Assembly: GCA_027604685.1 (NCBI GenBank)
Contig: JADHYX010000055.1
Location: 1 to 64,000, forward strand
Direction: 5' to 3'
Length of the DNA: 64,000 nt
Source: Lobulomyces angularis
Lineage: Eukaryota; Chytridiomycota; Chytridiomycetes; Lobulomycetales; Lobulomycetaceae
The notes under the pieces were generated by a model. The model was not told the origin of the DNA, searched no databases, and saw nothing but the letters and a program-made list of their open reading frames with translations. A program made the translations under genes and the position numbers. This document shows positions 140 to 5,987 of this stretch, one piece after another; positions within the stretch are counted from its first letter, which is position 1, and every line of letters starts with the position of its first letter.

Positions 140-399
140 ACCCTTTTCCGATTTTTTATTAATATCGGAAAAATTATTTTTCCGTTTAACTTATTACAGT
201 AATAAGGAAATTTATCTAGTATCTTAATAGTAGAGTAGGATTTGAATAATTGGGCAGCTTTTAATAAAAGTTTTTTATTTATTAAGTTAATAGTTCAAAA
301 AACGGAAGTTCGTTCTGGTTTTGGAGAAATTGAGTTTTGGGGTTTTATGTTTCTTGTTTGAATACGGCAAATAACTAACTAGAGTAGGCTATAAAAATT

Positions 400-2410
400 A
401 AAAAAATGACAACTTACCCCCATAAAACTTCTTTTCAAAAAGTATTCCAAGGAACTCAAATCCATCTAGATCGACTACAGTCTTTGTTGGTAAAGTGCGA
501 TAACTCCACATCCACACAACCCATTTTACAAAGTTTTATCTTTTAAACTGTCCACTTCCTGATCAACTACTTTTACATAAAGGTGCTTTTCAAGTTATTG
601 CATCAGAGTTAAACAAGACTGATAGCAGCATATCTAGGAGTGGTTGCGATAGAAAAGTTTTGGTTGATCACTTTTTATTTTATTAAATCGTATAAAGAAT
701 TGATTCATTATGATGGAGAAGGTATTAAACATTTTCAACAACTTGCAACCTACATGTCAGAAACATTTGAAATCAATATTAAAGGTAAATTAAATAGCAG
801 AAAATAAATTAATTTTTTTGTTAGTTGTTGTGCAAAGAAATTTTGTAAAAAAGATTAAAACTTTAATTACTAAAATTGTTATTAAACTAAATCTTCAACT
901 TTTCAGTATTCCAATTGGTTTACAAGAGGAAGAACGTCAACAACTTAAATGGGAAAGGGAGGTAATAAAAAAAAATTTAAAGGAAACTGCAAAAGTTGTT
1001 CGTTCCGCACAGTCCATTACCAGAAAACCTTCAAATAGAGGATCAAGATCTTGTGGGGCACTTCTTGGCTATGCTCCCCGAAAAAATCAGTGCGAAAGGC
1101 ATACCTTACGATATAACCATTCGACCATATTCAGTTGAGTTATTTGTTTGAACGATATTTGTTAAAACCGTTTAATTCCATTCCACTGTCGACTTCCACC
1201 GTTCCAATATACTTTTAAAACAAATTTGGGAATACTTAACCAACAAAAATTAACGAAGAGACAAAACCAGGATAACGGTCTCAAGTTTTTAACCTGAATA
1301 ATAAAGCTTTTAAAAGGAAAAGAAATGAAAAAATGAATTGTCATTTACTGGAATGATTAGAACAGATCTTGTTGGAGTTTCATTTAATATAGGTCCCCCA
1401 CCTTCAAAAGGTCGAAAAGAAAAAAAATAGAATCAAGTTTAACGGTCCGAGTTCCGTGATTTATCTCAATGACGCTACTGTTGGTTTGGTCAAGGAAAAC
1501 TTGTTGTGATCGATCCAAACAAGAGAGACCTACTTTACTGCCTTGGTCCAATGGGGAGAAAATTCGGTACACCCAACGAGTCCATGAAACGTTAACAAAA
1601 AAGTATAAGAGGATTCGAGAAGGGCTGACAATAGATGCTCGAATGAATGCCAATCCGATGGAAGTTGTTGTTCCCCATACAACCTGTGACACTGCCGCTT
1701 TCAACATATACCTTCGCAGTTTCTTTTCTGAGGATTCCGACAGAAAACAACGATTTTATGGTGGTCCGATTTTCCGAAAACTTTGATTAAACACCTTTTA
1801 CCAACACGAAAAAGTCGAAGGAAAAGTTCATCGAAAACTTCAAGAGTTCATATGGAGACGGTCGACAAACTGCGGTTCTTATTGGGGATTGGGACTCAGG
1901 AGGTCATACCTTGAGAGGTCAAGTTACGACCAAGGGAAAGGGATTTCGGTAAGAAAACTTCCCACTCTATATTTAATCATTTAATCTTTATTATTTATTA
2001 GGGAGCTGTTTCGTAGGGCTGGGTTTGATGTTTTGTTGTTGGAAGAATACAAAGACGTCAAAGGTATGTCCAGGTTGTGAGGGGAGACGCTGGAGACTTT
2101 CAAAAGGAGGGAGAATCCAAAACCGTGGAGGAATGATGAAGTGACTGTTCATGGGTTGTTGTGCTGCCAAAGCGAAATTGTTAACAAGCATGTGGTCACC
2201 CATTAAGGTTGTGGAATAGGGATGACGTTGCAACTTTGAATCAAAGGTCAATAGTTGAGTCAATGTTAGCTGGTGAATTTCGTCCCGTCAGGTTCCAAAG
2301 AGCTAATCTTCCTGAGTAGTTTTCGCTACTCTTGCCAAATGGTGTTAAAGACAGCTTAATTTATTTTTGTCCCGATGTTAAAAAACATATTGTCCAAGCA
2401 CTAGTTACCT
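400..2410 (+). pseudogene. Decayed Fanzor-type (eukaryotic TnpB-like) RNA-guided nuclease gene
   Basis: No intact frame remains, but short stretches in all three forward frames line up in the order of a TnpB/Fanzor RuvC nuclease. The first is VVIDPNKRDLLYC (RuvC-I Asp codon at 1512-1514). Then come RYTQ..HETLTKKYKRIREG, IGDWDSGGHTLRG from about 1884, LLLEEY (RuvC-II Glu near 2045) running by a +1 shift at 2051 into KTSKVCPGC (zinc-ribbon Cys pair, 2052-2078), HGLLCCQSE (second zinc-ribbon half), and RLWNRDDVATLN (RuvC-III Asp 2221-2223). The D, E and D catalytic positions all survive. A 53-nt GT-AG intron (1949-2001) is still readable and joins GKGF to RELFRRAGFDV in frame. The part before about 1470 is too decayed to align confidently; its limits are approximate. 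Stops and shifts make it almost certainly non-functional. Family assignment rests on motif recall, not a search. Confidence 0.75.
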
Positions 2411-3060
2411 ACAGTAAGTGCAGTTTTATGTTGGTAATACAATTAATTTAATACTTCTCCTCTTATCTTTATTTCATTCTCTTCTTTTTGTTAAATTTTA
2501 TGTAATGTTTTTGACAAACTTGGAGGTGGATTTAAAAAATTTTTGAAAATAATGATTAATTGAAAAAATCTGAAAACTTGTCTGGTTTTATCGAATAGTT
2601 CAATTATATTTAGAATTGGTATCGATGGAAAAAATATTATGAAATTAGTTTATTTCATAAATACAGTAAAATAAGCTATAAATTATTAATATTTGAACTA
2701 AAGGTAAAAGAAGATTGAACTTCCACAGAATGAAAATATTGCAGAGGTGAACTTGGCATTTCCATTAGTTGTGAAACCCGCCTTGTAAGCAGAACATCCA
2801 TAGTTCAACCCATAAGATTCCTTTTCAAAAAAAATTATAAATTATACAAAACTAATTTTAGTTAAAGTCTTGATTTAAAATTAAACCATCATTTAAGTAA
2901 AAAGCAATCAAAAAGAATAAAAAGGTTTATCGGTCATGCCTTTTTTAAAGGAAAAAAATTTTTTTAAAATAATAAATACATTCCAAAAAAAATTTATTGA
3001 GAAATCCCATCAAAAACAATTGTTAAAAAATATATTGTAGTAAGATGCTAAACAATTATA
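2411..3060. other. AT-rich intergenic DNA between the Fanzor relic and tRNA-Thr
   Basis: No reading frame with coding character is visible. The only recognisable item is the tRNA-Thr fragment at 2779-2811. The right end of the Fanzor element probably lies here, but I could not define it. Confidence 0.5.
2779..2811 (+). pseudogene. tRNA-Thr fragment (anticodon and T-arm piece)
   Basis: These 33 bases match the anticodon-loop-to-T-loop part of the intact tRNA-Thr(TGT) gene at 3061-3132 with only a few differences; both share CCTTGTAAGCA and ATCCATAGTTCAA. The 5' half and acceptor stem are missing, so it cannot fold into a tRNA. It is probably a broken duplicate. Confidence 0.7.
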
Positions 3061-3132
3061 GCCCCAATGGCGTAGTGGTAACGCGTTTGCCTTGTAAGCA
3101 AAAGATCCATAGTTCAATCCTGTGTTGGGGCA
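3061..3132 (+). tRNA. tRNA-Thr (anticodon TGT)
   Basis: The acceptor stem 3061-3067 (GCCCCAA) pairs with 3125-3131 (TTGGGGC), followed by A3132. The anticodon stem TTTGC/GCAAA closes a 7-nt loop CTTGTAA, giving anticodon TGT. The T stem CATAG/CTGTG contains one G-T pair. A T-run follows directly and would serve as the Pol III terminator. No intron. Confidence 0.95.
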
Positions 3133-4001: not shown

Positions 4002-5987
4002 TTAATGAAATTTAAAGTAAATTAAAATACAAAAAAAAACGAAAATGATATTAAAATGGTGTAAAAAAATTTTCTTTTTCGAGTTCTTATTTTCTTCCAA
4101 CCATGGCCAGTACTTTGGTTTTAAAGGAATATAACTTTTAGTATCAAAAGATATTCTGGACCAATCAGGTACTGGATATACTTTTCGATTAGTAGGATAA
4201 CCTCCATTTAAGGCTATTTCAAATGGACATTCTGCGCCTAGAGAAACAGCTGCCAGTAATCCTGACGTTAAACCTAAAGGAGTTAACTTTTTTATATTTT
4301 TTATATTTTAAAACTAACCATCTTCATGAAACCCATAATTAGTCCATGCTCCAGTGAACGATGCAAAGTTATTATTCTGAATGGAATTCAACTTTTCTTG
4401 GGCTTCAACAGTCTAAATATTGGAATTTAAAGTTAAAAATTTCGCTACATTGTATAGTATATTTAACCTTTTCATTATAAAGTGGATGAGAATATTCCCA
4501 TTCACCCAAGATCAATTCCGATTTCGGCTGCGTAAGAGGATTCAAAGTTACAAAAACGTCCCCATAGGTTTCTTTATCAATAAACTTTTGAAGCTTATTC
4601 ATCCAATAAGTTAAACATAAGGAAGTATCACTTTTTTTTCCAGAACTGACTCTTTCAGTCAAATAATTCCAACTAGCCCAGCAATTCTTTCTTTTTGGCA
4701 TTAAGCGTGGATCCCGGTGAAGCGTACATTTATTTTTAATATATTGGATAGAATTCAAAATTTCAAATTCCAGCTCACTGCAATCATTTTCTTCTTTTAA
4801 AATTTTCAAAGCTTGATCAGTGTGGACTGCAAATATAACGTGATCAAATTCTAACACTTCCTTCTTAGTCTTCAGTAAAACTACTGGTTCTCCAATAACT
4901 TTTCTTCGTTTGATAGAATATACTGAAGTGCTTAAATTTATTTTCACATTTCTTATAGTTTTTAAAATAGCGTCGATGTAACTCTGAGATCCATTATTTA
5001 CAGTTTTCCATTTTGGTCTATTTCCTATTAAAAAGTAAGCAGTATGAATTTAAAAAAAAAAATATATATATATACCTATTTGTAACAATTGGTGATTTCT
5101 CATAAATTTTACTAAAGTAAGTAAAGGAAAGTCTTTTAATGCTCCTGCTGGAGTGCTCCAAATTGAAGCTGTCATTGGAAGCAAGTAATCTTCATAAAAC
5201 GCTTCAGAATAGTTATTCGCGTGCAAAAATTCTTTGACGCTAATTAATTTTTTTATTTTAAAAGAAAACATGTGCTTGATAAATTAATGGATAAATAATT
5301 TCTTTTTGCAAATTATACCTCATTTTTACAAATCGCTCATCAGAATCGTTACCGTTATTCTCAAATTTTAATTTATCATTATAATTTGAAACTTCTATTG
5401 CTTGAGAGTGAAATTTCATTATGTCTTTTAACATCATGAAAAATTTCAAATTAAAAAGGTTTGATGTTTGAGAAAAAACAGTTCTTAAATTTGTTCCTGC
5501 CCATTCAAATTCGCCAAAATTTTTTGAAACTGAAAACGACATATTTGATTCAATTAATTCTACGTTCAAATTCTAACCAGTAAAAATTTTTAAATTTTTT
5601 AAATTTTTTAAATTAACTCAGATATTTATGAATATTAATTACCGTCATAAAATTTAAAAAATTTGGATAAGTAACAGGATTGCAGACAATAAATCCTTAA
5701 AAGATTAATTTTGAAACCAAAAAAAATAGAAAAAAATTGTTACCTGTATCGACTCCAGTTTTAATTTTTGAATTATTAAGAGACGAAATTTGTACAGTAT
5801 GAGTATGACCACCAAGTTTACTTTCTGCTTCAAAAAGAGTCACTTCAAATTTATCTGGATGTTTTGCCAATAACCAGGTAGCAGATAAACCACTGCATCA
5901 TAGATTAACGTATTAGCAGATATGAATTTGGTATTCTTGCCTGATACCACTTCCAATAATAGCAATCTTTTTAATATTTTTTGACAT
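4002..5987 (-). CDS. FAD-dependent amine-oxidase-like (NAD(P)-binding flavoprotein)
   Basis: The protein opens with an N-terminal Rossmann dinucleotide-binding motif, IAIIGSGISGLSATWLL, followed by FEAES..LGGHTHT, the usual FAD-ribose glutamate and substrate-loop region of amine-oxidase-fold flavoproteins. Mid-protein it has VIFAVHTDQALKIL, and the C-terminal part has LHRDPRLMP, FTGAWTNYGFHEDG and LTSGLLAAVSLGAECPF, the pattern of the bacterial predicted NAD/FAD-binding family (COG2907 type). The start is the Met directly before the Rossmann strand. Exon 1 is 5941-5987. Its intron (5893-5940) begins with GC rather than GT and interrupts the GxGxxG motif itself. At least five more short introns follow. 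Its start codon lies only 27 bp from that of the divergent DUF1365 gene, and bacteria place these two families together with cyclopropane-fatty-acid-synthase-like enzymes. A role in fatty-acyl or lipid modification is therefore inferred; the substrate is unknown. Confidence 0.85.
5893..5940 (-). other. GC-AG intron in the flavoprotein gene
   Basis: The only continuation that restores GSGIS|G uses donor GCAAGA at 5940 and acceptor CAG ending at 5893, giving a 48-nt intron. All other introns I worked out in the window start with GT. Confidence 0.75.

Follow-up and report, generated by a model that had tools for sequence, protein, structure and literature searches.

Fanzor1 remnant and its relatives

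We analysed the first 64,000 nucleotides (the window) of contig C55 of the chytrid Lobulomyces angularis (Chytridiomycota, Lobulomycetales), whose draft genome comprises 20.76 Mb in 533 contigs. The window has a GC content of about 28%. Positions ~200–2403 (forward strand) are a 5′-truncated, pseudogenised Fanzor1 transposon of Tc1/mariner type. Fanzor proteins are the eukaryotic kin of CRISPR nucleases. Matches to sibling copies elsewhere in the genome start at 200 and mostly stop at 2403, delimiting the remnant of a single element. Only the 3′ terminal inverted repeat (TIR; 2356–2403, minus strand), identified by sibling comparison, and the right TA target site (2402–2403) remain; the 5′ TIR is absent. 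In the sibling on contig C33 the 5′ TIR sits ~200 bases upstream of the stretch that matches window position 200. Since similarity to the siblings ceases at 200, short of the expected position of the 5′ repeat, the window copy is truncated at its 5′ end. An earlier note on this DNA had placed the relic at 1470–2330, an interval that lies in a real element but covers only its C-terminal half: the relic begins with an ATG at 406 and the element ends at 2403.

The coding relic extends from this ATG to a TAG stop codon (406–2319, forward strand; stop 2317–2319), as traced by tblastn with proteins P0007, P0003, P0002 and P0024. P0024 (610 residues), searched against the first 2.6 kb of the window, matched within 424–2301 in changing frames through its residues 8–131 and 203–607, with a grouped E-value of 6.9e-46 for the portion from residue 203 onward. 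Matches to P0002 and P0003 covered window 824–1009. By our count of the tblastn matches, the relic contains about ten frame changes beyond those due to its two introns (see below), and stop codons lie inside the matched stretches. The window copy is thus dead and no longer able to work.

The order of motifs that the earlier note had read across shifted frames, from DPNKRDLLYC through the zinc ribbon, is present in the relic. On the forward strand, RuvC-I is DPNKRDLLYC (1512–1541; Asp codon GAT, 1512–1514), the RuvC-II catalytic Glu codon (in EEY) lies at 2045–2047, and the RuvC-III catalytic Asp codon (in WNRDD) lies at 2221–2223. The metal-binding residues of SpuFz1 are D383, N385, E541 and D606 (PMC10432273). 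In alignments of siblings and the relative P0013, the window DPN, EEY and NRD align with D383/N385, E541 and D606, using our own derivation of the residue offset that the fusion protein introduces into the structure file, and all three RuvC catalytic positions reported earlier can be read. A further motif, GDWDSGG (1884–1904, forward strand), is conserved, but PMC10432273 does not name it as part of the metal-binding set of SpuFz1. The Fanzor1 signature, given as D, [T/S][T/S]xx, a C4 zinc finger and RD (Bao and Jurka, PMC3627910), is found across frames as D at 1512, TSKVCPGC at 2055–2078 (shifted frame) and RD at 2218–2223. The first Cys pair of the zinc ribbon is read as CPGC (2067–2078, forward strand); the second is altered, HGLLCC in the window and HGLLRC in siblings.

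Sequence searches against solved structures matched the open frame of sibling C255 to SpuFz1 (8gkh, E 6.8e-34) and Parasitella Fanzor1 (9cf0, 3e-24), and the zinc-ribbon piece of sibling C35 to the same two (7.3e-19 and 2.2e-16); no other RuvC or RNase-H transposase was among the matches listed for C255 and C35. From the window itself, the piece at 2185–2319 alone had SpuFz1 as its best solved match (E 0.0033), and the piece at 1977–2144 alone gave no Fanzor match and nothing convincing in the PDB. None of nine element pieces of the window reached the cut-off in Pfam, and four sibling pieces of the window's family scored at best 18.5 bits on PF07282 (cut-off 26.3). Judged by these alignments, the closest solved relative of the window element is SpuFz1 of Spizellomyces punctatus, and Parasitella parasitica Fanzor1 (9cf0) is second best, with a weaker match. 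P0013 also matches SpuFz1 and is 35–37% identical to annotated Spizellomyces proteins. The assignment to Fanzor made in the earlier note therefore holds.

The L. angularis genome holds dozens of Fanzor1 places. DNA searches gave at least 45 places for window 1400–2330, at least 41 for 2230–3060, at least 33 for 150–1450 and at least 32 for the 3′ repeat, counts that overlap, include the window itself and are lower bounds. One Fanzor1 protein probe matched 76 places, some loci being counted repeatedly. Matched TIR arms were found in C213 (48 nt, 96%), C272 (54 nt, 89%), C302 (37 nt) and C22 (33 nt); none were found in C189, where the right repeat is partly deleted. TA is present at both ends of C272, C189 and C22, and of C213 if a small indel is allowed; the left end of C302 is TG. 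Internally deleted derivatives occur among the copies. Many relatives of the window copy thus exist, as the earlier note had expected, but no intact full-length copy was found. The listed L. angularis proteins of the Fanzor family span 193–394 residues, none of them full-length (one search covered proteins of up to ~583 residues), and none of the 36 proteins returned by one protein search was named L. angularis. Five loci (C196, C216, C6, C25 and C175) have Fanzor1 matches without stops in frames of 164–332 residues and may hold genes that are better preserved.

Some copies with the same repeats probably carry pieces of a DDE transposase. C189 and C22 have transposase-like pieces inside the same TIRs. 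One C189 piece matched HTH_28 in Pfam at 24 bits (cut-off 25; 4e-5), and Pfam gave nothing relevant for the C22 piece or for the two remaining pieces of C189. A DDE_3 search of the genome gave six matches, C189 not among them; the C-terminal C189 piece recurs at at least 19 places (itself included), overlapping or within 30 bases of five of the six. C124 (L025, 1477–2300, minus strand) is probably a further transposase-bearing copy, in which the left repeat (2300) is followed by an HTH frame resembling a transposase and then by a Fanzor fragment.

Two proteins of Clydaea vesicula belong beside these copies: P0002 shares 88% identity with the C255 frame across 99% of the frame's length, and P0007 matches the last 46 residues of the window relic at 93%. 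The window's Fanzor1 family is common to these two Lobulomycetales, L. angularis and C. vesicula.

Guide-RNA-like 3′ end and insertion flanks

The earlier note had supposed that a guide RNA might exist elsewhere in the genome; a putative guide-RNA (omegaRNA) scaffold already lies in the window itself (2314–2403, forward strand). In aligned tails of the copies, the stop codon falls inside a hairpin (stem 1, 2314–2331), which is well kept in 21 tails, though not at every letter (C123, C341, C101). A short linker follows, then a block (2340–2346) able to pair with the end of the element, including the TA (stem 2, 2340–2346 with 2397–2403). Counted per sequence, 11 of the 21 tails form 7/7 pairs with their last 7 nt and the other ten form 6/7; in nine of these ten the best partner listed differs from the TGGTGT block (ties were not displayed). 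Because this count is permissive, we regard stem 2 as moderately supported. Of 24 tails extracted, 21 had a placeable end and were used; C189, C434 and C35 were left out. RNAalifold, run on our alignment, gave stem 1 only in default mode and added weak closing pairs in a ribosum run. Compared with the C350 tail, the window tail lacks 28 nt between the two arms of stem 2, where the SpuFz1 guide RNA is flexible (PMC10432273). Target-site duplications belong to the scaffold in eukaryotic transposons (Yoon et al.). The aligned tails predict that the final 90 nt can take up a fold resembling that of the SpuFz1 guide RNA. SpuFz1 takes a guide of 14–15 nt out of its right flank (PMC10432273); if the same rule holds here, the host flank at 2404–2418 (forward strand) would have been the guide.

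We examined the bases next to the TA sites at both ends of the copies. CA directly precedes the TA at 8 of 13 left ends, at 3 of 21 right ends (mirrored) and at 449 of 11,559 background TA sites (window, both strands). The left ends differ from the right (Fisher one-sided P 0.0065), and the right ends lie slightly above background (P 0.046). C124 was dropped from this count, the modules having given it no side although its geometry is that of a left end, and C15 was counted as left; with C124 as left and C1 as right, the values become 9/14 and 3/22 (P 0.0027). A1c copies contribute five of these 21 right ends. The count excludes the broken or unsided C1, C23, C31, C130, C434 and C436, and also the C35 right end, the C432 repeat match and a weak match internal to C94. 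Although their last bases are similar, C2 and C116 differ upstream (19/42 alike), and both were counted for that reason.

CATA is the targeting motif established by test for SpuFz1, whose elements carry CA in front of the left repeat (PMC10432273). The left-end bias in L. angularis fits such a Fanzor targeting motif retained at that end and leaves room for a transposase preference, since the slight enrichment of the mirrored motif in right flanks (3/21) means that part of the CA bias may come from the transposase. That the whole bias is a target preference of a mariner transposase, uninformative about the Fanzor motif, is a serious alternative that we nevertheless consider unlikely: the bias is asymmetric (8/13 against 3/21) and equals the motif tested for SpuFz1.

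We are highly confident in reading this stretch as the dead remains of a Tc1/mariner-type transposon of L. angularis that carried Fanzor1 and had a TA site and ~50-bp inverted repeats. The following life cycle is proposed for the element. In life, its mobility would have depended on a DDE transposase that recognised its inverted repeats; some copies seem still to encode pieces of such an enzyme. An RNA produced from the final ~90–120 nt, with its guide taken from the flank on the right, would have been bound by the Fanzor. The nuclease would then have cut sites consisting of CATA plus the guide, which is the site left empty after excision, and repair of the cut empty site from a copy would restore the element. 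The transcription, cutting, targeting motif and role in retention proposed here are modelled on SpuFz1 and on bacterial TnpB.

Mosaic structure and a shared 3′ end

Comparison with siblings indicates that the window copy is a mosaic, with the N-terminal ~40% from one subfamily (A1b, C101-like) and the rest from another (A1a, C130-like), and that C33 is alike. At informative sites in window 392–1191, C101 is favoured over C130 by 260 to 14; from 1292 onward, C130 is favoured over C101 by 158 to 17. C130 is without letters in most of 1392–1591, and its stand-in C350 is favoured over C101 by 34 to 4 across 1420–1550. A two-block comparison gave a Fisher P of 8e-30. The steadily C101-like run of sites ends at 1180, a C130-like site first appears at 1202, and sites at 1202–1283 are mixed (8 to 5); we therefore place the crossover between 1180 and 1298 (forward strand), most simply at 1180–1202. 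By our reading of the SpuFz1 alignment, the changeover maps to about residues 260–315, before RuvC; the REC contacts R260 and R268 of SpuFz1 (PMC10432273) lie near this point.

The genome is a draft of 533 contigs, and repeats can be misjoined in assembly; the apparent mosaic might then be two copies joined in error near 1180–1298. We regard this as improbable, because C33, a second locus with its own left flank, is alike the window on both sides of the crossover, with at least 90% identity in 14 of the 17 100-base blocks that have letters. The hybrid is thus present at two loci. The sibling copies suggest that parts of the nuclease were swapped between subfamilies, and both halves of the mosaic may have worked together.

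The 3′ end module (2280–2403, forward strand) is common to the window and to copies of a diverged subfamily, A2. In seven copies (C123, C272, C265, C22, C271, C147 and C189), one common upstream sequence joins the window 3′ end at 2280. Upstream of this junction 5–7 of 30 bases match the window; downstream, six copies match at 54–59 of 60, and C271 at only 37 of 60 owing to the ungapped comparison. C272, C189 and C147 have matches to the A2 protein probe, so that at least three of the seven are A2. This subfamily is SpuFz1-like (a C272 piece matches SpuFz1 at 4.5e-45), and short matched stretches of the A1a copies C130, C35 and C350 are 38–41% identical to the A2 probe. The same junction in seven copies points to a single fusion that then spread.

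Taken together, these patterns permit a broader proposal, which we advance tentatively as a real possibility: that Fanzor1 nucleases evolve by module swaps within mobile elements. An A1b N-terminal part, reading the targeting motif, would have joined an A1a RuvC/NUC and guide-RNA end, and the hybrid would have multiplied; independently, a diverged SpuFz1-like subfamily would have taken the same 3′ guide-RNA and TIR end. If so, a single guide-RNA scaffold would serve two diverged Fanzors of the same genome, and mosaics that were functional would mark where Fanzor domains can be exchanged without functional loss. The exchange described by Bao and Jurka concerns whole 3′ portions moved between elements (PMC3627910), whereas the L. 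angularis mosaic lies within the Fanzor protein. Among titles and abstract openings, with many subscription papers out of reach, we found no published account of Fanzor in L. angularis and no published mosaic within a Fanzor protein.

Introns, known systems and neighbouring features

The 53-nt GT–AG intron that the earlier note had reported (intron alpha, 1949–2001, forward strand, phase 2) is borne out by its presence and absence among siblings. Of 13 siblings aligned here, nine keep the insert, some with changed length or ends (C122, C173). C101 and C128 are shorter by exactly 53 bases, C84 by 54 and C5 by 55. Across the junction C101 reads KGKGFREMF, as the spliced form would, and C128 reads KGKGFSEMV; C84 and C5 are stopped or out of frame. 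P0013 reads KGKGFRKMF without interruption at this position. A spliceosomal intron is recognised here, by sequence comparison, from GT..AG ends and precise absence in siblings. No annotated L. angularis protein was seen that skips the insert, P0015 ending where it begins, and a chance indel might be suspected on that account; given the GT..AG ends, the siblings that lack exactly 53 bases, and an excised product (KGKGFRE..) that is uninterrupted in C101 and has its counterpart in P0013, we consider such an indel very improbable. The earlier note had also taken the intron to mean long residence in this genome. That argument fails: several copies share intron alpha, which therefore arrived with the element and does not indicate the age of the insertion.

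A second intron of 40 nt with GT..AG ends (785–824, forward strand) was identified from the copy alignment and from P0015 (C130), which skips the corresponding stretch. By eye, it is present in 11 of 13 aligned siblings; C128 and C130 are broken there. Alignment also places an additional intron at approximately 1417–1418 (forward strand) in C101, C255, C5 and C390; it is absent from the window, C434, C33, C173 and C350, and C130 is deleted there. Where both sites could be scored, the ~1417 intron occurs without intron alpha in C101 and C5, and intron alpha without the ~1417 intron in the window, C434, C33, C173 and C350. The C255/C122 group blurs this pattern, with the ~1417 intron in C255 and the intron-alpha insert in C122, each read at one site. 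The two introns thus appear reciprocally present and absent between subfamilies, a pattern that would reflect gain, loss or transfer by recombination within the window's Fanzor1 family. Spliceosomal introns and annotated hypothetical proteins of the family in L. angularis might recall a domesticated Fanzor host gene decaying in place, a view scarcely credible beside the many dispersed copies, the inverted repeats with TA sites and the internally deleted derivatives.

Fanzor1 elements of Tc1/mariner type (SPu-1-type) are an already described kind, and the window copy is a further member. With SPu-1/SpuFz1 of Spizellomyces punctatus (PMC3627910, PMC10432273) the L. angularis elements share the Fanzor1 catalytic residues, TIRs, TA sites, copies without an ORF, CA before the left end and a ~80-nt 3′ region from stop to end with two stems (here predicted). 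SPu-1 elements have 33-bp TIRs, putative TA target-site duplications and a single Fanzor ORF (PMC3627910). That ORF is uninterrupted, whereas introns occur among the L. angularis copies, and some copies carry transposase-like pieces in the same TIRs. Bao and Jurka (PMC3627910) described mariner elements at TA sites with Fanzor1 alone and with Fanzor1 plus transposase; PGv-1, PUl-1, PUl-4 and other Tc/mariner Fanzor1 elements likewise either combine a mariner transposase with Fanzor1 between TA sites or carry Fanzor1 as the sole gene within mariner TIRs. PGv-1 comes from an algal virus (PMC3627910). Beyond the known kind, L. angularis adds mosaicism, reciprocal introns and a shared 3′ end. The mariner-type Fanzors that have been studied best are those of a single chytrid, Spizellomyces; L. 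angularis is a Fanzor-rich relative with coexisting diverged subfamilies, and its genome allows domain swaps that arose naturally, the turnover of introns and the shared guide-RNA end to be compared directly.

Two other TnpB/Fanzor families were noticed in the genome. Family B comprises L001, L002, L004 and L006 (C78, C123, C189 and C5), of which L002, L004 and L006 were placed there by eye. L001 matches PF07282 at 1e-14, and its best solved relative is the mimivirus TnpB-like protein L79 (7e-17), matches that make family B perhaps Fanzor2-like. Family C comprises L003 and L005 (C247, C107), with the motif GDADF..DEYYTSQTCPIC; L003 also has FHRDVAAAE. Both were above the PF07282 cut-off in the genome search, and a piece of L005 gave no Fanzor match when searched by sequence against solved structures.

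Three features lie in the window outside the element. Just downstream, 2445–2763 is 76% alike C53:65473–65775 and is a separate repeat. A degraded tRNA-Thr-like stretch, recognised by eye (2740–2815), resembles the tRNA-Thr at 3061–3132; ARAGORN made no call for it. Further on, the frame at 4405–5049 matched an amine oxidase model in Pfam.
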